DNA from: Lepidurus packardi
Lineage: Eukaryota > Arthropoda > Branchiopoda > Notostraca > Triopsidae
Assembly: GCA_023053545.1 (NCBI GenBank)
Contig: JAKZAN010000006.1
Coordinates: 9,332,351 to 9,396,350 of the forward strand
Direction: 5' to 3'
DNA length: 64,000 nt
The notes beneath the pieces are model-generated. The model saw nothing but the letters and a program-made list of their open reading frames with translations, searched no databases and was not told the DNA's origin. The translations under genes and the position numbers were made by a program. The stretch's first letter is position 1. Each line of letters begins with the position of its first letter. Positions 21,583 through 41,760 of the stretch are shown here, piece by piece.

Positions 21583-23225
21583 CTACCAGGCAAATCGCTG
21601 TCCACGCCAGGCGGCTACTAACAAGGCAGGCAACAAGAAATCTGCAACTGTGACGCCTGAACTGCCATTATCCCCAGCATGCGTGTTTTGACCGCAAGCG
21701 GGTGGGCAAATAGGAATCACAGTTTCTAAATAATAACAATACAAAAATGGAATCAATGCCACTCTACTTTAAAAAAAAATAAGAATCTAACTAAAAATAA
21801 AGAAAAACTCACACTAGAAGCAAAAAACAGCGACCAAAACAAGATGTAACATGGAATCTCACAACTTACCGAACAGTTCCATCTCAGCTTCAGATTGTCC
21901 AAGCTTATTTGAAGCTCTGCAGACGTATTTGCCATATTGCCGTTTCTCGATTGTTAAAATCCTAAGAGTTGTGTCTGTAAACTCGTCCGCAGTAGCAAAA
22001 TGGGAAATACTAAAACCAAAACGAAGTTACAAATTTTTAACAAGACCAAGGTAAAAACTAGGCAAGATGAGGAAGAATCAGCAAACCTGTAATGTTGGTT
22101 ATTGGACAATTGTTCTTCTTGGATCACTGAGAGCTCTCGCTTGTGCCAGGTAATTGCAGGAGGAGGATAAGCGATTACGTGGCATTCCAAATCCATATCG
22201 TAGTTATGTGCTTGACCTAAACGAGGTCGTGGCACTGTAATGACCGGGGAAAACTCAACTTCTACAGCGATATTACGTCGCTTGCCTTTGCCAACCTATA
22301 AGAGTAAAGATTAGCATGACTAATACAAATAACTTCCTTTTTTAATCTTGTTTCTTTCGTAATTACTCCGTTTTCAGCGACGCAGTAGTAAGTACCACGA
22401 TGTTCTTTGAGGACATTAGGGATAAGAAGAACATTCCCTCTGTAAAGAGAGCCTCCAGTCGGCAAAACGGCATAGTTTTCTCTTCTCCAAGAAACTTTCG
22501 GTGCTGGGAAGCCACCAGCATAGCATTCTAGCTTAATCGGAGCGTTTTCGGGGACGATAACTGATCTCGTCGAGTTGTCGAAGATAATGGGTGGAATGCG
22601 TACAGAAACACTGACTTCTGCGCTGATTCGCTCAACGAACGTTAGCTGAACTTGGCACTGATATTTGCCAGCATCGTTTTCTTGAATGTCTTTGATCTAG
22701 AATACGAAAATAGTAGTTTTGTAGTTGTAGTGTAAAAGGGTTCTTTCGATGAAAATACTTGAAGGGTGTAAGTAGAACTAGCTTGGTCGTAACGCAAAGA
22801 AAACCTGCTGTCTTTGAGGATTAGGTTTGAGCCCGTAGATATTGCAACAGAGCGAGAGCCGTCAATATTGTCAAGTTTCATCCATAAGATGCTGTAATCT
22901 CTGGCGTACTGCACAGAACACTCAAGTTCTACTGAACCACCAATGTCCATAATCTTTTCTTGGGAAATGTAGGAAATTGTGGGGAACCGCTGTCCGAGAA
23001 CTATAATAAAAGCGTCATTACAATGGCAGACAGAACGATGCGACACAATAGAAATTTTTTTAAATCAAACATAAACACAATTCATTCGCGATCCGGTTAC
23101 TATTTTCATATTACAGATACAGAAAACATTAGACTCTGCTTATTATCTATACAGAAAAGCAGAAATGGTGAAAGACTCTTACCAACTGGTAATAAACAGC
23201 TTATCAACCAGATCAAGTTCCACAT
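21583..23225 (-). CDS. Lac: Lachesin, GPI-anchored three-Ig adhesion protein
   Basis: Six exons on the minus strand: 23183-23225, 22759-23000, 22367-22696, 22295-22087, 22009-21870 and 21725-21583, joining in phase to 368 residues (fly Lac has 359). The start encodes a short signal peptide (WNLIWLISCLLPV). Ig1 begins with QRFPTISYISQEKI and carries RFSLRYDQASSTYTLQ. Ig2 has the W and YYC of a C2 domain. Ig3 begins VPRPRLGQAHNYDMDLECH and ends YGKYVCRASNKLGQSEAEM. The linker IPICPPACGQ precedes a hydrophobic C-terminus (DFLLPALLVAAW), fitting GPI attachment. In flies Lac is a homophilic adhesion protein of septate junctions needed for tracheal tube size. The gene is head to head with the fasciclin-3 homologue. 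Confidence 0.95.
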
Positions 23226-25096: not shown

Positions 25097-28000
25097 ATGG
25101 ATTCTTCTTGGAGAGGATTAATTCTTGCTTTCGTTTTTCTTGCCGGTAAGTGCTGTCATATCCTTGTTTGTAGTTTCTTGCGAACAAAATGCGCTACGAA
25201 GGTAGAATGTGGAAACATCAAGAATGGTGTAGCATTGGGCGAGGCCCGCGAGTCTCCTGCGCATATGGCTGGTGGCTAAAAAGTTTTAGGTCTCAGTTTT
25301 CTTACGCTCAAGTGTTACCTTTCACCGGTTTCTCTCCACTGTCTTAGCTTCTTCAAAACGTTTGGGGAAAACGCCATTAAAAGCGTTTTTTTAAACCTCT
25401 GTCAATACTAGGCCTCAGCAGCTCATTTTGGTGGAAGAAAACTCGCGGCAATCGGAAGTTTTTCCTCCGCCTAGTTTTATCTTCCATTGACCATAAAGCT
25501 ACTAGCACAACTTTTACCTGTATTACTCGACTTTCTTATGTTCGCCTTTCTTCAGTTCGTAATTTACTGTGAAAAAAAAAACGCAATTGAAGACGCCGTC
25601 TTTTTATAGTTGACCAATGTTAGGCATCAACAACTCGGTAGTGGGAAGAAGACTCGTGGCAATCGAAGATTTTACCTGCCCAGTATTATTTTTCGTTGAT
25701 GTAAATCAATTCAGCACAACTTTTTACTCGAAAAACTAACTAAAAATTTTTAATTAAATTAGAAATAAAAGCCAAGAATGCAAGAAACGCTTTGCCGCCT
25801 ATGTTTGGTAAACTATCCATTCCCGCTTCAGCATTCCAGTGCTTCTGATGAGATTTCCGTCCACAGAATTAGCAATATTCCATACACATTTTCTCCAAAT
25901 CTCAAATCCGTTTAGCAATATACAAAGGGAAATCCTCGGTCGTTTCTTGTAAATCCTAGAAGGTTATTCTTTAATGTAAAAACTAATGTATACTTTTGTT
26001 GAATTTGGGTCCCTTTGGAATGAATTTGTACCTGAAGCTTGTCGTTCCAAGTAATATATCACATTATTATTTGGTAATTAAGCTTAATAATAATAATAAT
26101 AAGGATAACGTGTTGTCATGGTTTTGGAGCCTCTTGGGACATGGCAGGTGGTTGGAAATGTTTGTTTCTTTATCGAAAGTGTCAAAATTCTTTTCACTTT
26201 TGAAGACTAGAAGGGTTAAAAGGGATTTGTTATCTTTAGCAAGGCTAAGGAATTTGGACACTTAAAACTCCCAAATGTATGAAGGCTGAAAGGTTTGGAA
26301 AGGTCAACTGTTTTAGTTGGTTGAAGGCACAAGATTGGCGTTTACTTTTTCACGTTCAAGTGGTTATGGTGAAATTTCGGCACTCGGCTAGAAGTGCACG
26401 ACTGAAGAAGGCAACGTACATATTTCATTTTTTTGGGCCTGGTAGTTTTTATTGCAGGGATTCATTTTCTTTTGCAACTTTTTTTAAATCTTGAAAGTCA
26501 AGTTTGTGGGCTTTTTTTCTCACATTGGAAGAGTCGGTGACCGTAAACAAGAACTACAAGCCAAAAGATTCCCGTTACCCTTGGAAAACCGGCAAAGTCG
26601 TTTACCTTCAAGGTACTTGTAACGTAGTCACGTGACTATTGCAATATAATTGAATTAGTTTGGCAATTAAGCAGTCTGGTACATTTTACGGTAATTATAG
26701 TTATCATGTGTCGTTAAAAATTAATAATTACTTTTTGAATCCCTGCAATAAAAGCTAGCAGGCCCAAAAAATGAAATATATAGGTTGCCTTCTTGTATTT
26801 CTAGTATTTCTATCTAAATTGATTGGAAATTGTTTGCTTGATTACCTTGTGTTCATGCGAGCAGGTCATGTTGGGGTACTTACGCATGTAGGAGCCTAAT
26901 GCTGACTTTTCGAGGGAAAGTACGAGGACTGGTTGAATGTACCGCTGTCCGGCATTGAATGATGATTGATTTCTGGCTACAAGTGCACGTGTTCCTACTT
27001 GAGCTTGCTTCGGCCATAAGACAGATACTTCTCGCGCATTACACTGACTATTATTAGCAACCTTAGTATTAGATAATTTAGATAACGTTCAAAGACAAGC
27101 AAAGCTTTTCAGAAGTGTTTCTTTTCAAAATTAAAATAATCTAAATACTTTTTACTTTCGAATTTTATGTTTTAATACATATTGTCATTGTGAACTGTTC
27201 CCTGTGCCTTTTTTTTGGACACCGTTTTTCAAATTTAGATCAAAATGTTCTCTAATTTATTTTGTTATGTAAATCAGTCTCTCCAAACAAAGATTTTTGT
27301 TTATAATGTAATTTGGTAAATTAAGAATTTTAAATAGTATAGATGCATTTTGTAAATGTACAGTAAATGTTTTCTCTGGTATGGGTGAATGTTGAATTGA
27401 ATTTTATATATTGAAGTGAATATTTGTTAAAGATTTTTCGAGCTTTTTAAAAGATTTTTCCAGAAAATCCGTAGGTGAGGTGCGTGGAGAGGATGACGTC
27501 ATGGTGTATCCATGTTTTTTTTTAAGCCGTAGTATTTTTTCCAAAAACCCGATGCATTGTTTTATGTTCTTCATTAAAGTCATTGGATTTCCCGGGGAAC
27601 TAAATTGCTACACTGTACTATACCTCCTGTAGCCAGACGGGAATACTAAACTATAACCACACAAGCGAGCGGGGGTTTTGGAGGAGAACCTATTGATTTT
27701 CTTTGTTAAGAGAAGGGGGCGTGCTATAATTTCACGTCACTGACTGCTGTGGAGTGAAGAGGGGATCCTTAACTGACGACGAGACATATACGAGGACTCT
27801 TTTTCGAATATGCAAAGGGTTCGCCACTCGCTTGTATCTTCAAATACCGGGTTCAGTGGGTTGAAAAGTTTATGCTTATAACCTTACGCAGAACTTCGTA
27901 AGAGAACACCTTAACCATATAGCTTTGTACATATAGCTTGTACACCTAGGAAGACAACTGTGAATCATAGCGTATACGCTATTCTGTTCTAGTCTTCTCT

Positions 28001-34000: not shown

Positions 34001-37000
34001 TGTTCTCGGAAAGCCACGTGGCCTTGAAATAGCATCAAACCGTTGCAACTATGAACCGATTCTGTGTATGTATGTTTAAATGGACTCTTGGTTTGTTTTG
34101 CAGGATTGGCATCCAGCGAGGTTATTATTACTTCAGTGAAACCACTTCGGTTGGGAGATATTTTCCGTGTAGCTTGCAGAGTTCCCGGTAAAATTACGCA
34201 ATGCTTATGGGAAGTAAACGGGAAGTTGATAATACCAAGTGATACGGCTCCTTTAAGACTAGCCCCAAGCAGCTCTGAAAAGGAATGCGGCGTTGAGGTC
34301 AAATTGACAATAAGAAATACTTTCTCCCTTTTATACTAATCGTGTATTGTCTTTTTCGCAATAGGCCGAAGCTACTGAAGATCTGAACGGTTCTTTGATC
34401 TGTAAAGTCTTCACTGAATCTATCAGCGGAATTGCCGAATCGGCCAATACGACGGTTTCCGTCATAAGTAATATATATTTCCCTCTTTTTTTGTCTTGGA
34501 TGCAACTTATAATTGCGTCGTAACTTGTAGGTGTACCTGAAGTAAGTCTACGCCCTGCGTCGGAAAGTTTTTCAGTTACTGCTGGCGAAGATAAGCAAGT
34601 CGTCTGCGTAGTGAACAATGCGCGGCCCGTTCCATCTATTTTGTGGATGATCGGTAAGTGCATAGTCTTTCTGTAATTGTAGATTCCTGAAAGATAGCAT
34701 TTGGAATCTTTTTGCAGGGGATCGTGTAATTGAAAACAAGGATTATACCACCACGTCACAAGTGGGCGCCAATGGAAAGGTGAACCTTAACAGCATTCTG
34801 AAACGAGAGTTTGTAGCCCTGGAGCACAACAAGGAGTTGCAGTGTATGGTTAAAGCCGACTGGCTCCGTCCGGAAGACAATACTGTGGCCCAAACTAAGC
34901 TTGATGTCCAATGTAAATCAGAGATTTTTTCATAGATTTGTTTCCCCTTTTTTTTAAAGGATAAATACTTCATAACGTTGGAACTTAACATGCTGACTTT
35001 CTTTATTTGCAGTCCCGCCGATGCCGCAAAACACCATCACCATCTACGGCCTGGAGGAGAACAAGCAAGGTGAAGTGCGAGTAACAGTTCAGGCTAACCC
35101 CCGTCCCAACCGTGCTGTCTGGATCTTACCTTCCAATCAGCAGTTAGTAGTGGAACCGGAGCTCGGTGAAACAGTTGATAACAATTACCGCGGCCATTCT
35201 GGTGAAGACAACGGCAATGGAACGTACACCTACCGTTTAACCATTGATTCGGTGGCAAAGCAGGATTCCAATCCCGGCATCAAATTCGAAGTGCATAATC
35301 GTGTGGGTGGCCAGGAGCCTCAGCAGTATTTCGTACAGGCTGTCACAAGTCCGCAACCAGAACAAGGTACGACACCGGTTTTAGACTTTGATGTAACCAC
35401 CACAGGCACTACTACAACGCCAACGAAGATTAATTCGGTTGATGACAGTGATGACATTCAACCGTCACAAGGGCCCGGCAGTCCCTCACAATGGCTCTGG
35501 ATATTGGCAGCGGTTATCCCAGCTTGTTTGCTTGTTTGTTTGCTTACCTTAAGAAAACAAGGCATTTTCAAACAATTTGCGTAGTTTTTTGGGATCTGTT
35601 TTGGACCTAATCTGTTTGTTAAACGCCTCAACATGTTCCTTTTTTAAAAAAAGAATCCCATCTCTTGATCTGACAATACTCGACAGCAACACATCCTAAG
35701 TTTGTAGCATCACAAAGATTCAGACCAATGAGTTCCTGTTTTGTTCAGGAAAAATTCAACTCGGCTCTCTTGAAAAGTTTGAAAAGTACAATAAAAGTTG
35801 GCATGTCTTTTTTAAATGTTTTTTGATAAACGATTTCACTTTCGGTTAGCTAGTGTTGTTTCTTTGTTCGTATGCCTTCCAAGCCTGTGATTTTTTTCTC
35901 CCTAAAAATGAAATGATTGCATACAACTGGACTAGTTTGAAAAAAATAGACATTTTAGAAAAGTGCGACAGGACTTCAAAATCGAGAAAATTATACAGGG
36001 ACATCATTTGGAAAGCAACCTTTTCGTTTGCGCGTTTCATAATCTACACTACTCTCATCTTTGAGTTGATTTAGTCACTTATGGGAAGTTTAATAAATTT
36101 TCTCTTGTTTTTTTCCACGTGCTCCCTGGTTCAACCTTACAGAAGGCGGTAAATTGTTCTATTTGATCCTTCTTTAAAACCTTGTTGTGCGAGGCACGTT
36201 TTTTGTGTGTATTATTTCTTCTTAGCGTTTTTTTTTTTTTTTTAATTTTAAAAGGTTAATACGTTGTTTTGTTTATCTTTCAGCTGGACTTAGTGGTGGA
36301 GGCATTACAGGCATTATCATTGCACTCATTGCCCTTGTGGTGGTCGTAGCTGTTGTGCTGTACTCGCGTAATGCAGGGAAACTATGTTTCGCTGGTAAGT
36401 AAACAAATTAAAAGACTTGGAACCCCATTCCTTCGTCTTATTTCTTCATCATACGGATACCAAAAGGTTGAATGTTGCGCGACTTGCTTGTGAAACTGTC
36501 TTAAACGGAGGTGTTGTCACGGAATGTTGACGGGCTTTCTACCCTTTTACATAATCTGTCTTGGCATTACTCATTATTCTGTATTGACAATCCGCTCCTC
36601 TTCGTCAATACTGAAGGGAAAAGGCTTTAATTATTGGGGTGGCGTCTTTGACCTTCGTGCTTGTTTAGAGCCACAAATACTTGAATTGTGTAATCCCAAA
36701 CGTTTATTATTTTGGAGGCGTGGATGTTAAAAGACTTATTTCCTTTTATGGATGTGATGTTACTCTCCCGTCGTCTTATCTATACATTTATATATATCTT
36801 TACATTCATCCAACTTAAAGGTTTATACATTTCTTGCCTAAACTTGTATTAACCTCCAAAGGCTCCTGTAATAGTATTAGCTTTCCATTCAGTAGCTTGG
36901 AGGAGGTAGAAGCAGCTTTACGTAAAAAGCATACAGGTTGTTGCAAAACTTCTTAAACAGTAATGTGGTTAGTAGTACACAAAGGTCATGACAGTTTTTT

Positions 37001-40000
37001 TTTATTTTTGCCTTCACTAACTTCAAATATGAAAAGTAGTTTTTCACCCTGTGTATTTGGAAACTGTCATGTCCTAGACGTTATTTTTGAGTAGTCTGTA
37101 GAAAAGTGTCATTCAAATTAAGTTCATGATTATAAAAGCTATTCTGCTTGCTCTTTCGTGTGCAAAAGCAATGCGTGTTCATACTCATGCAATGCACTCC
37201 GCGCCTCCATGCTTTGGTGTAACAAGCTAAGCTATACGGGAACCTTAAAACATGCTCCATCTCATCGAATTCATCGTTCGTAAATGAACAACAATTGTAA
37301 TACTTGTGACTATTATTTTTGAACCGTTTGCCAGGAAGGCAAGGCCCCTTTCCACTGTCTCTTTCATCTTACAGTCATTGGTTCCATCTCTAATACCTGA
37401 TATGCAAAAGTTTTTTAATTTAATTTCTTGCATTTTGCTTCCGTAGAAACAGTAGTGGCGAGCATGAGATTTACATTGTTGCATTTTGCGCCTTTTTCCG
37501 AATATTTCATTGTTGTCTTGTCAACTGTAACGGTTGACGGTGTCGACTGTTATCAACTATCGAAGGTTAAATTCAGAAACAGTTTTGGCAAACATGTCTG
37601 AACAAGTCTAAGAAATGTTAACATTTTTTAAAAGGTTAAGGGTAAATCTTGACTTGCCTTCCTGTTGCTGTAAGATAGCAAAGACGGTTCTAACCTATTA
37701 TTTCTTTTTGGCTTTTTGTTTGTTGTCATTTCCTTGCCCCCACCTCTCCCATGTCCCGTCATGCGCCTTTCTGGGACGAAAACGTTTGAAAAACAAAAAC
37801 AAGGACGCCGACGGGAACCCATTGTGGGGGCAGATTCCCAAGCTGCCATTGACGTAGAAGCTCCAACTCACAACGGAGATGGAGGAGCCGAAAATTTTGC
37901 GAAAATCTCGTCATCAAACGAACACCTTAACCTCAACTTATCTACTCCTATCAACGGCAACACAGACTTGAAGACGCCAAACATTATGGATGCAGAGAAA
38001 TTATCCGAAAAAGAAAATGGCGTATCAAAAGACAACAAAGATACACCTGTCTAGTGATAATAACGTAGATTTCTTACTTTAGAATGAAAACGCTTTTTTA
38101 AATACGGTCCATACTTTTTCCACAAGTTTTACTTTTATTTTTTCCCAGTCCAAGTATGAAATTCTCCAAGCTTTAGACTGAGGTACAAGTATTCTACAAG
38201 ATTTAGTTGTGATATACGTGTATTCTCAAACTATGGATAGAGGTATACATGTATTGACAAAACTATGGGTAGAGGTTATACATGTAATTGACTCTACATG
38301 AACTATGGATTGAAAGTACATGTATTGTCAATACTGCTGTTGGAGAGTACTTGTATTCTTCAAGGTACGATTAAGTTACACGTATTGAGGGAAGGCTGGC
38401 AACTGGTAGTCGGAACTTAGCCGTTCTTGATGGTAGCTGTGAAGTGTAAGCTTTTATGGACCATTCTTGTAGCGTGATAGGCAATTCGATCAAGAGAAAG
38501 TGTTAAAGGAGTATATCTTTCTGTATTTTATATTTGTCCCTTAAGCCGAACTTGTTTACCGTATACCGTGTGTCCTTAAATGTTGACAAAAGAAAATGTT
38601 GAGACGATTTTTAACACTGGATATTGTCATCGCCCTCTCCCGTTTTTGCAGTTTAGACTACACGAATCTCGTAAATTGTAGAGATTTTGAACTGAATTTT
38701 TGATTGGTTCTTCATTAGGTCAGGCTGAGACAGACATGTGAAAACGATTGACTTGGGTTTTATTCGTAAAGATAACTAAGCTCCTATGGAGTAAGTGTGT
38801 TCCGAAGATCAGTTGTAAACATTAATCTTTTTAATTGGAACAGTTAAATTTCACTCGGTCGTTCTCATTTTTTTGCAGCACATATTCTCTTCATGCTATT
38901 TTTTTATTAGTATCATGGGTATACATATTTGTAGCCGGTTCTATTACAAGTTTGCATGCCTCGTCAACATTCCATTGTCCCCAAGCCTGTTTTTTATTAT
39001 CATTATTATTATTTAAACTTGCAATTTTGGTCAATTTGACTTCCAACTATATCTGCCCGTCATTGGATCTGAATGAACAAAAGTATTTTACCTAAGTGTT
39101 GTAACCATGTTTATTAACGCATGGAGATTCTTTCTTCTTCGTAAGTTCAGTCAAAGCCTTGTGTGTGCGATTTGCAATAAATCAAACACGGATGTTGTAA
39201 AACTGACATTTACTTAGCCCTTTTTTTTTGCTTGTTCGCAAAGCTGGGTTTTGAGTATTAAAATTATCTTATTTTTATTTACGTTTTTACTCTAGGTGCT
39301 GTCAAGCCCGCGGTCACCAGGTAGGCTATGTTATAGCAATTCGCTTATTTTCAAAGGGTAATAGCCACTTGTAAATTCTGTTTTAAAATAGGACGAAATG
39401 GTGGTACGTTTATAGTGGTTTGTTACTTTCAACCGTAGACTCAAGTCATAATTCAGCTAGTACAGCGGGTAACGGGGGTTTGCGATATGTTGTTTACTAT
39501 ATCCGTGTACTTCAGCTTCAGTTTGTTTACGTGATTAAGCATACAAGTATGCGATAACCATGGTAGACAACGTAAGCCATACTTATGCCCCTTTCATTAC
39601 GTCACACACTTCAAAGGTTAATAAGTTCCGTACGACTTTTGAAAAGATTTAATTAATTCGTCGTTCTTATAATAAAAAATCAGTATCAATCAAAACCTAC
39701 CAAATGTATTTCGGTGGCTATTGCACTTCTTGCCTGTGTTTTTGCATTCTTTATGTTGTGTACGCCTTTTTGAGTCAATTGTTTATATTGTTTATGTTTA
39801 TAATTGTCTTTCTAGTGAGGATCCAGAGAAAGGTGAACCTGAACCAGTAGTTGTTAGGGAAACGTCCCAGAAACAAGGCTTTAGTGATCGATTGAGTCAT
39901 ATCTACGAAAACATCGTCCATCGTACGCAGAAGAAGAAAGGCGAGAGGTTAACAGCAACCGAGAGTGAGCTCCAAAGGGTAAGTTTGGATTAAGTAACAT

Positions 40001-40830
40001 TAGACTCTTAAGGCTACCGTACAGCTCAGCTTTATGTGGTACGATAGAGGGATAGTATGGGAAACGCAGAAGCAGTAACAAATCTTTCGCAAGGATGTTT
40101 CCGATTCCCAATGCCAGTATCTATTCGCCACTAAGTGGGCCGTTTAGCTGTCACGCTCTCTCGTATGGAGAGCATGACAGTTTTACTTCTGTTTTTCCCT
40201 TCATTAACTTGAAAAATGCAATTTAAAAAAATCCCTTGTGAAAAATTGCGAACTTGGAAACTACTGTGTATTAGAAGTGTTTCATTGCACTTTTTAAGAA
40301 AAATTCAGTGCAAATCAACGGCTTGATTATAAAGCCTTGCGAGTTCATATACATCCATGCAAAGCAGTACGCTTCCTCGCTGTAGCTTTGGGATAACAAG
40401 CGAAGTTATACGCAAGCCTTAAGGTTAAACTCTTAGACTAAAGACTTGAAGAAAAATCTGGATAATAATTACTGGTGGTTGCTTTTACTAACCCTTGAAC
40501 TTTTCATGCTTCTTCTTCTTCTTGGCAACGCTGTCGCTTGTCTAGCTGGATCCTGAGCCAGCGGAACGGAAGGAAGAGGTCTCTTTTTAACACATAGCAT
40601 TGCTTGAAAGATTTGCGAGCAACTGTCCTAATCTGAATTTTCTTTCTTCTCTGGATCTAACACAGGCGGATGGGGTGGTTTACGCAGAGTTGAATCTCAA
40701 AGAAGCCACAAAACCAGGAATCACACGCATCGAAGAGCCAACCGAGTACGCAGAAATTGTGGGGATAGTGAAGATGAAAGAAAACGATGAGAAAGAGCCA
40801 GAGGACAAGGAATCTTCCAAACCCATATAA
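25097..40830 (+). CDS. Fas3: Fasciclin-3-like adhesion receptor, long form with tyrosine-motif tail
   Basis: Exons: 25097-25145, 34104-34297, 34365-34467, 34531-34653, 34718-34912, 35013-35366, 36284-36394, 39296-39320, 39816-39978, 40666-40830, giving 493 residues with phases agreeing at every joint. The signal peptide is exon 1. Three Ig-like domains follow. The third starts near ITIYGLEENKQGEVRVTVQA, aligning with fly Fas3 AAVYGLYLEHTA..., and the membrane segment IIIALIALVVVVAVVLYSRN is followed by AGKLCFAG (fly TGRWCFGG). Fas3 is a homophilic adhesion molecule of septate junctions and axons. The tail holds YENI (Y415), VVYAEL (Y445) and TEYAEI (Y467). The exon-2 donor (GAGGTCAAA) is weak and is the least certain joint. 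Intron 1 is 9 kb. Two other ends are listed separately. Confidence 0.85.
26404..26797. mobile_element. Short element with about 60-bp terminal inverted repeats
   Basis: The left end AAGAAGGCAACGTACATATT and the right end (complement AAGAAGGCAACCTATATATT) pair for about 62 bp with a few mismatches, through the shared CCCTGCAATAAAA motif. The interior is about 270 bp and non-coding. No target duplication is clear, so the superfamily is unknown. Confidence 0.65.
28542..28730. mobile_element. Pogo-type MITE, about 190 bp
   Basis: Starts CAGTGGACTTTAATTATTTG after a TA, and the right end is its approximate complement (CAAATAAGCGGATTGCGC). The centre contains CGGTCCC like the other pogo-type elements in this window. 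Non-coding. Confidence 0.55.
31403..31440. mobile_element. Left-end fragment of the TTAA MITE family
   Basis: CTCCCGTATAGCGTAGCATG followed by TTACA matches the left terminus of the complete copies with two changes. The rest of the element is missing or replaced by the LTR-like repeat that follows. Confidence 0.4.
31556..31830. repeat. Dispersed LTR-like repeat, copy 2
   Basis: Collinear with 14684-14965 over its whole length, at roughly 75-80 percent identity by eye. See copy 1 for the reasoning that ties the family to the BEL/Pao fossil at 51-52 kb. The divergence suggests an old insertion. Confidence 0.5.
31983..32250. mobile_element. Internal fragment of the TTAA MITE family
   Basis: Shares GCGTTGCATGGGTTTATATGA, the CGGCAAGCAGG block and the ATGACAGCTTCTAA block, in the same order, with copies at 4674, 6981 and 36970. 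Both termini are degenerate (GCTACCGGGAGGAGGCG at left). Confidence 0.4.
35367..35584 (+). CDS. Alternative terminal exon of Fas3: second membrane anchor, almost no tail
   Basis: If the donor at 35367 (AAGGTACGA) is not used, exon 6 reads on in frame for 72 codons: a Thr-rich stalk (TTTGTTTTPTK), an acidic stretch, then WLWILAAVIPACLLVCLLTL followed by RKQGIFKQFA and stop. This is a second transmembrane segment with a tail of about ten residues, giving a 411-residue protein. AATAAA at 35790 gives it its own polyadenylation signal. The coding character (balanced codons, stop after basic residues) makes it unlikely to be intron. Loss of the signalling tail would make an adhesion-only or decoy form. 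Confidence 0.7.
35790..35795 (+). terminator. Polyadenylation signal for the short Fas3 form
   Basis: AATAAA 206 bp after the alternative stop codon at 35584, inside what is intron for the longer forms. It supports a real early 3' end. Confidence 0.6.
36970..37244. mobile_element. TTAA MITE family copy lacking its left end
   Basis: The right end GTAACAAGCTAAGCTATACGGGAACC is followed by TTAA (37245-37248). The interior shares the GCCTTCACTAACTT and CATGACAG blocks with the copy at 40012. The left terminus is not found, so the copy is truncated or rearranged. It lies in the Fas3 intron after the membrane exon. Confidence 0.55.
37804..38054 (+). CDS. Alternative terminal exon of Fas3: Ser/Asn-rich cytoplasmic tail
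   Basis: An acceptor (AAACAAG) at 37803 joins the membrane exon ending at 36394 in phase, so that LCFAG is followed by RRREPIVGADSQAAIDVEA and a hydrophilic tail rich in N, S, E and K ending KDNKDTPV, for a 459-residue protein. It contains no tyrosine motif. The acceptor is weak because the pyrimidine tract is some 40 bases back, so this joint needs transcript support. The basic start right after the membrane segment fits a cytoplasmic tail. AATAAA at 39176 could end this transcript. Confidence 0.6.
39176..39181 (+). terminator. Candidate polyadenylation signal for the Ser/Asn-tail Fas3 form
   Basis: AATAAA about 1.1 kb after the stop at 38054 and just before the next Fas3 exon (39296). It is in the right place to end the middle isoform. 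Confidence 0.35.
40012..40418. mobile_element. TTAA-flanked MITE, complete copy in a Fas3 intron
   Basis: Begins GGCTACCGTACAGCTCAGCT and ends AAGCGAAGTTATACGCAAGCC, with TTAA directly outside both ends (40008-40011, 40419-40422). It is 407 bp and non-coding, almost the same length as the copy in KMO intron 5. Confidence 0.75.
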
Positions 40831-41545
40831 GGGTTTATATCCTATTAGCGATATTTTTGGATTGGTCTTCCCATGTATTTAAGTATTTGCGCTTTCTGGG
40901 GATGGGAAAAGCAAATGTGGCGTCGTGTTTGGATGATTGATCTCAACTGTTTTGTGGGAATCAACCTTAGGAGCAAAGAAGGAAAAACAAGAAAAATAAC
41001 ATGCTGTCGCACCTATATCCCAGTTTTCCACACCTGTTCTTCATACTCGTAAAGTAAAACCTCTAAAGTTAAGTAATTTAAAGGCAGCTTAGTAATGTGA
41101 CGAAATTTCACTTCCTTGCTGAACAAAGATCATCAAATACGACAGCTAATGTTAACAGAAAATTCAGAAACTTTTTATGCTCTTAATGTATAATTGCTTG
41201 CATGTTTTCAGCACCGTTTTTTTAGGGATCAACAGACTAAGGAAAAAATCTAATAATAATTACAGCAAAATCATGTCAGCGAAAACTTGGCACTGGAAGA
41301 AAAAGCTAAAAAGAGTATTGGCTTTTCCTGTTGACTTCATATGACGTGATGTTTCCTATAACCAAGTCTTCTGCTCGTGATTGTTTGCTTCCGCTCTTAA
41401 AAACAACGCTTATTCAATAGAATAAGTAAAAACTCACTGACCAATTTTTGGGTAGGCCGAGGAGGAAGTAATGTGTTTCCAGTGTTCTTATACGTGTATA
41501 TGTGTCCTTTTTATGCTATAGACATGTATCGTGCTTTTAAGCCTC

Positions 41546-41551
41546 AATAAA
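41546..41551 (+). terminator. Polyadenylation signal for the long Fas3 form
   Basis: AATAAA 716 bp after the stop codon at 40830, followed by a GT-rich stretch (AAAGGTTGTGC). It is the first canonical hexamer after this stop. Confidence 0.5.
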
Positions 41552-41611
41552 TGGGAATTTTGTAAAAGGTTGTGCATATTTAAGCTGTATGTATTTGCTA
41601 GAAAAATTATA

Positions 41612-41760
41612 CAGTCGAACCCATTTAATTACAACTCGGATAACGACAAGACCCGACTAACTACAAGGTAGTCTCAAGTCCCGTTTCATTCCCATTTAAC
41701 ACAATACGACTAACCTCGGATTACTCCAATTCGGTAAATGACACAGCTCGGACACAGCAA
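41612..41760. mobile_element. Pogo-type MITE remnant
   Basis: CAGTCGAACCCATTTAATTA follows a TA. Internal AACTCGGATAACGAC and CTAACCTCGGATTACTCC are near-complementary halves around an AAGTCCCGTTT centre, the usual plan of these short elements. The right terminus is decayed. Confidence 0.45.

Follow-up and report, generated by a model that had tools for sequence, protein, structure and literature searches.

How many endings can one adhesion ectodomain carry, and can the choice extend to the membrane anchor itself? We examined this for a Fas3-like gene in a 64-kb stretch of the Lepidurus packardi genome (G000:C5:9332351-9396350, hereafter the window; genome of 108.6 Mb in 344 contigs). The gene lies on the + strand, with a signal-peptide exon at 25097-25145, a long intron, and exons 2-6 at 34104-35366, followed by sequence that could encode three different C-termini. 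We consider it probable (roughly 0.7) that one Fas3 ectodomain is joined to three alternative C-termini, the short one arising when exon 6 is used as a composite terminal exon. The features, in window positions, are as follows.

25097..25145, + strand: exon 1, start codon and predicted signal peptide; donor GTAAGT, phase fitting exon 2, hydrophobic N-terminus; about 9 kb before exon 2.
34104-34297, 34365-34467, 34531-34653 and 34718-34912, + strand: exons 2-5, immunoglobulin (Ig) domains 1-2; GT/AG junctions, matched exon by exon in paralogues with the same junction places.
35013..35366, + strand: spliced form of exon 6, encoding the third Ig domain; donor AAG/GTACGA; nine paralogous exons.
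35367..35584, + strand: exon-6 read-through with Thr-rich stalk, putative second membrane anchor, ten-residue basic tail and stop; open for 72 codons, with a homologue on contig C3.
35790..35795, + strand: AATAAA hexamer 206 nt past the read-through stop, a candidate end signal for that form; chance of at least one that near, 0.16.
36284..36394, + strand: canonical membrane exon of Fas3, with phase-1 joints at either end; aligns with the fly Fas3 anchor (provisional fly sequence); no second genomic copy found.
37804..38054, + strand: tail B, 83 codons including a split Gly codon, ending in Asp-Thr-Pro-Val; in frame, with its acceptor after an AG-free stretch, and a codon score.
39176..39181, + strand: AATAAA hexamer 1122 nt past the tail B stop, a candidate end signal for that ending; chance of at least one that near, 0.61.
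39296..39320, + strand: tail C exon 1, 25 nt; GT/AG and phase, its length being too small for other tests, the codon test included.
39816..39978, + strand: tail C exon 2; GT/AG and phase, codon score.
40666..40830, + strand: third exon of tail C, which contains Val-Val-Tyr-Ala-Glu-Leu and Thr-Glu-Tyr-Ala-Glu-Ile; AG acceptor and phase, codon score.
41546..41551, + strand: AATAAA hexamer 716 nt past the tail C stop, a candidate end signal for that ending; chance of at least one that near, 0.45.

The predicted proteins comprise 411 (read-through, ending at 35584), 459 (tail B), and 493 (tail C) residues, and their coding sequences of 1236, 1380, and 1482 nt are each divisible by 3, with GT/AG junctions and one terminal stop. 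Phase 1 is found at the joint between exon 6 and the membrane exon and at the joints into tails B and C, so the two tails would be interchangeable. A first-pass annotation of this stretch had correctly placed exon 6, the read-through stop, the membrane exon, tails B and C, and all three AATAAA hexamers, and its claim that the three C-termini are in phase is borne out by these coding sequences.

In a single BLASTP comparison, the 459-residue form aligned with a provisional fly Fas3 sequence at 97 identical positions of 399 with 51 gaps (E 6e-12). The alignment was co-linear and extended past the canonical anchor, where Cys-Phe-Ala-Gly is paired with Cys-Phe-Gly-Gly, and the splice joint into the tails of the window gene falls at the Gly of this Cys-Phe-x-Gly motif. 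Because the alignment runs through the membrane exon, we take the anchor encoded there as the one conserved in Fas3 and that of the read-through as additional. A Pfam search reported Ig domains, and a search of solved structures (E up to 1) returned 32 sequences, general Ig proteins only, with SYG-2 (4ofy) as the best match; a single residue where exons 2 and 3 meet was wrong in both queries, without consequence for the conclusion. The alignment of ectodomain, membrane exon, and Cys-Phe-x-Gly motif with the provisional fly sequence agrees with the earlier identification as Fas3 and makes a Fas3-like gene a strong lead. Separately, when the canonical membrane exon is read on (36395-36400), a stop follows Gly-Lys, a possible fourth ending that would be tail-less on the usual anchor.

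The evidence for the short form centers on a second gene. In a genome search, the 189-residue read-through query had 11 matches, one being the window itself; another (C3:11309377-11309973, designated L020) matched the query over its full length with 51% identity in an open frame of 208 residues. This copy has the same Thr/Ser-rich stalk, anchor, and basic tail as the window gene; the tails, compared as Arg-Lys-Arg-Gly-Ile-Leu-Lys-Arg-Phe-Ala against Arg-Lys-Gln-Gly-Ile-Phe-Lys-Gln-Phe-Ala, have in common the pattern Arg-Lys-x-Gly-Ile-x-Lys-x-Phe-Ala-stop. When anchor and tail alone were used as the genome query, only the window gene and the C3 copy matched. The alternative anchor proposed in the first-pass annotation thereby gains independent support, and the conservation of its frame, suggested there as a check, is seen in a paralogue, a comparison within one genome and not between species.

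The ratio of nonsynonymous to synonymous substitution rates (dN/dS) between the two genes was 0.34 over 70 aligned read-through codons (bootstrap 0.14-0.65), with 0 of 5000 bootstraps at or above 1, and 0.40 (0.23-0.64) for the Ig part. This ratio averages two lineages, and therefore constraint acted in at least one of them; constraint on the read-through in the window copy itself is likely, not proven. At the position of L020 that aligns with the window gene's exon-6 donor there is no GT, although one occurs ∼20 nt earlier; an AATAAA follows the L020 stop by 279 nt, which is not unusual given how often the hexamer occurs in that locus. The membrane exon and tails B and C were not found a second time genome-wide (E up to 1), a type of search that short exons can escape, nor in the 11 paralogue regions, which for the C3 copy extended ∼7 kb beyond the stop; we thus gave up the idea of paralogous copies of these exons. 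Because it has no aligned donor, and no membrane exon or tails were found nearby or elsewhere, L020 appears to carry the short ending alone.

Several results weigh against three alternative C-termini. For the whole read-through, 13.7% of the dN/dS bootstraps were at or above 0.5, and for anchor and tail (32 codons) the value of 0.32 had an interval of 0.07-1.00. Simulated neutral evolution, with no indels and 0.4-0.6 substitutions per site, left the frame open in 6-11% of runs. Codon usage was undistinguished in both the read-through and the membrane exon, with 20% and 12% of null windows, respectively, scoring as high, where the null windows may include other genes and the training set was partly this gene family plus six frames at another locus (L030) that were assumed to be coding; codon usage was not decisive as proof of the read-through. 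Tails B and C are without a homologue for comparison. The AATAAA hexamers in 35013-41700 numbered 5, against ∼5.5 expected from the 53 in the window, and at this chance density they were rejected as proof of three 3' ends; they are compatible with such ends and are not evidence for them. The earlier claim that each C-terminus has its own 3' end signal is thus weak: the hexamers are present, at a density no higher than chance.

The most probable alternative is that an ancestor used the short form, as the C3 copy still does, and that the window gene now always splices exon 6, its open frame being left over. It draws on the averaging of dN/dS over both lineages and on the bootstraps at or above 0.5, but the window frame is intact at a dS of ∼1.4 from the C3 copy, and neutral survival of such a frame was infrequent in the simulations just described; we consider this relic unlikely.

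A less probable alternative holds that the read-through and one long tail are used and that the other tail is a mis-called exon. Tails B and C were recognized by splice dinucleotides, phase, and marginal codon scores (tail B within the top 4.6% of null windows, tail C exon 2 within 6.6%, and tail C exon 3 within 3.2%), and the tail B acceptor has A-rich sequence next to its AG, all of which would suit a mis-call. Against this, both tails fit one phase-1 joint, and the tail B acceptor closes a 120-nt AG-free, pyrimidine-rich stretch (20-71 nt at other acceptors of the gene) that is the seventh longest of 3656 AG-free gaps in the window and has a branch-point-like TTCTAAC near its start. A long AG-free stretch before an acceptor is the arrangement expected with a distant branch point. 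The tyrosines of tail C all have Ile or Leu at +3 (Tyr-Glu-Asn-Ile, Val-Val-Tyr-Ala-Glu-Leu, and Thr-Glu-Tyr-Ala-Glu-Ile). The patterns of immunoreceptor tyrosine-based inhibitory and switch motifs (ITIM and ITSM) are V/I/L/SxYxxL/V/I and TxYxxV/I, and by eye we take these tyrosines to resemble SH2-binding and ITIM/ITSM patterns; the Asp-Thr-Pro-Val end of tail B is presumably PDZ-ligand-like, both being likenesses of sequence.

The frame past the exon-6 donor stays open for 72 codons, versus 1, 2, 4, 7, 7, 13, 18, and 44 for the gene's eight other donors. Among random window draws, with those touching this gene's exons discarded, 4000 of 102638 (∼4%) were stop-free over 71 codons, and 0.5% of these 4000 contained a stretch of 19 residues whose hydrophobicity reached that of the read-through anchor. 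That the open read-through is mere chance, which this ∼4% and the undistinguished codon usage would allow, is highly improbable, as it is contradicted by a second gene whose homologous frame is likewise open and encodes the same anchor and tail, and as no dN/dS bootstrap reaches 1; an accidental open intron is thus an unlikely origin of the read-through.

The third-Ig exon was found at nine further places (L020-L028, on contigs C2, C3, C5, and C16) and, as a short piece, at one more place on C6, these paralogue counts being lower bounds. As judged by sequence comparison, this is a recent expansion of the exon in this genome. Another paralogue, L029 (G000:C4:11882000-11889000), has exons 2-5 with an 83% match to the window gene, introns included, and only a fragment of exon 6 and its read-through; a long TA repeat is present, and sushi-like frames were seen nearby by eye. 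Junction places agree among the paralogues, with GT in 26 of 26 mapped donors and AG in 31 of 36 mapped acceptors, partial matches being left out of both counts.

Among the nine third-Ig copies, the read-through anchor occurs in L020 only. The same exon ends in a C-terminus like that for a glycosylphosphatidylinositol (GPI) anchor in L021, L022, L023, L024, and L025; in L027 an in-frame TAG precedes the GPI-like end sequence, the end of L026 is altered, and L028 has an early stop. Hydrophobic maxima near the stop were 1.58 for L021, 1.13 for L023, and 1.49 for L025 (three of the five measured), and a GPI signal is possible for these three. The corresponding values were 2.69 for the window short form and 2.56 for L020, both of which end in about ten residues rich in Lys and Arg, and this Lys/Arg-rich tail disfavors a GPI anchor for them. 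The sister copies L020 and L021, arranged head to head, share 93.9% identity across 1386 aligned positions that include introns (L020:1323-2704); this similarity breaks off where the third Ig domain ends, and the C-termini beyond are unrelated, an abrupt change of anchor. In a tree of Ig exons, the pair joins the window gene with a support of only 0.79. Several copies, dispersed in the genome, are 98-99% identical to one another, and two have an early stop. For possible relatives in viral contigs there were 12 pattern matches, and none was confirmed.

For one ectodomain with three C-termini in the window gene, we infer transcript use, the cleavage site, and membrane topology as follows. The exon-6 donor AAG/GTACGA would compete with cleavage of the pre-mRNA in the following intron. 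If spliced, the donor would lead to the canonical anchor and then to tail B as the last exon or to the three exons of tail C, to 40830; if it is skipped and cleavage occurs somewhere after 35790, exon 6 would become a composite terminal exon. The latter product would have the Thr-rich stalk, the other transmembrane helix, and the ten-residue basic tail, and it would stay in the membrane. This short form would lose the PDZ-like motif of tail B and the tyrosine motifs of tail C and most likely adheres via the same ectodomain. Whether it then serves as a silent or competing adhesion molecule is a suggestion to which we give somewhat less than even odds.

Still more tentatively, the anchors may be modular. 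The main gene would pick two long tails or a near tail-less anchor by its choice of 3' end, and duplication would have frozen the tail-less outcome into a separate gene; tail-less products would be competing, non-signaling partners of full Fas3. Anchors seem to be swapped as units, with the adhesive face kept, because L020 and L021 diverge abruptly into a transmembrane versus a GPI-like end.

Fly Fas3 is described as five proteins with a common extracellular domain and differing intracellular domains (PMC12173457). The Drosophila isoforms (A, B/F, C, D/E, and G) resemble the present case in family (by the provisional fly sequence), in their shared ectodomain, and in their alternative intracellular tails. 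Unlike these isoforms, whose described differences are intracellular, one form here would also replace the anchor, and a paralogue carries the short ending; replacement of the anchor, which the first-pass annotation had called striking, exceeds the account of five proteins in that source. In Drosophila Dscam1, the choice of exon 17.1 or 17.2 (TM1/TM2) directs the protein to dendrites or axons (PMC2566808). Dscam1 is likewise an Ig-superfamily protein with a transmembrane segment swapped on a shared ectodomain, but it picks between two internal exons, whereas here splicing would alternate with read-through to a 3' end inside the intron, which would remove the tail along with the anchor. Tail-less and tailed forms of one ectodomain are also described for NCAM1-120 versus NCAM1-140/180 and NCAM2-GPI versus NCAM2-TM (PMC7949136); the tail-less NCAM form is GPI-anchored, whereas the short form here has a transmembrane-like anchor and a ten-residue basic tail.

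Composite terminal exons made by intronic polyadenylation, as catalogued in human immune cells, arise when a donor goes unrecognized and the last exon extends to a cleavage site within the intron (PMC5928244). The predicted short form is similar, here with an in-frame coding extension of 72 codons past 35366 that is conserved in a paralogue. IgM is the textbook membrane protein with intronic polyadenylation, its anchor being lost and its product secreted. IgM loses its anchor, whereas here another anchor would take over. The accessible text on Fas2 transmembrane isoforms (PMC13015903) and that using Fas3 as a junction marker (PMC6881148) held nothing decisive for the present case, and open-licence PubMed Central titles included none on an alternative Fas3 membrane anchor or crustacean Fas3 isoforms, which does not prove that such work is absent.

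Replacement of the anchor on a shared Ig ectodomain is thus already known from Dscam1 and NCAM, and by this comparison what the present locus would add is a duplicate that appears to carry the short ending alone. If this is true, an Ig adhesion molecule changes its whole membrane anchor through one unused donor, and the duplicate with the same ending alone lets one trace how an isoform became a gene; whether the anchor sequence steers Fas3 to different parts of a cell, as in Dscam1, could then be tested as well. Directly upstream of Fas3 exon 1, Ig-superfamily frames of another gene were seen by eye on the - strand (window 21954-23064).

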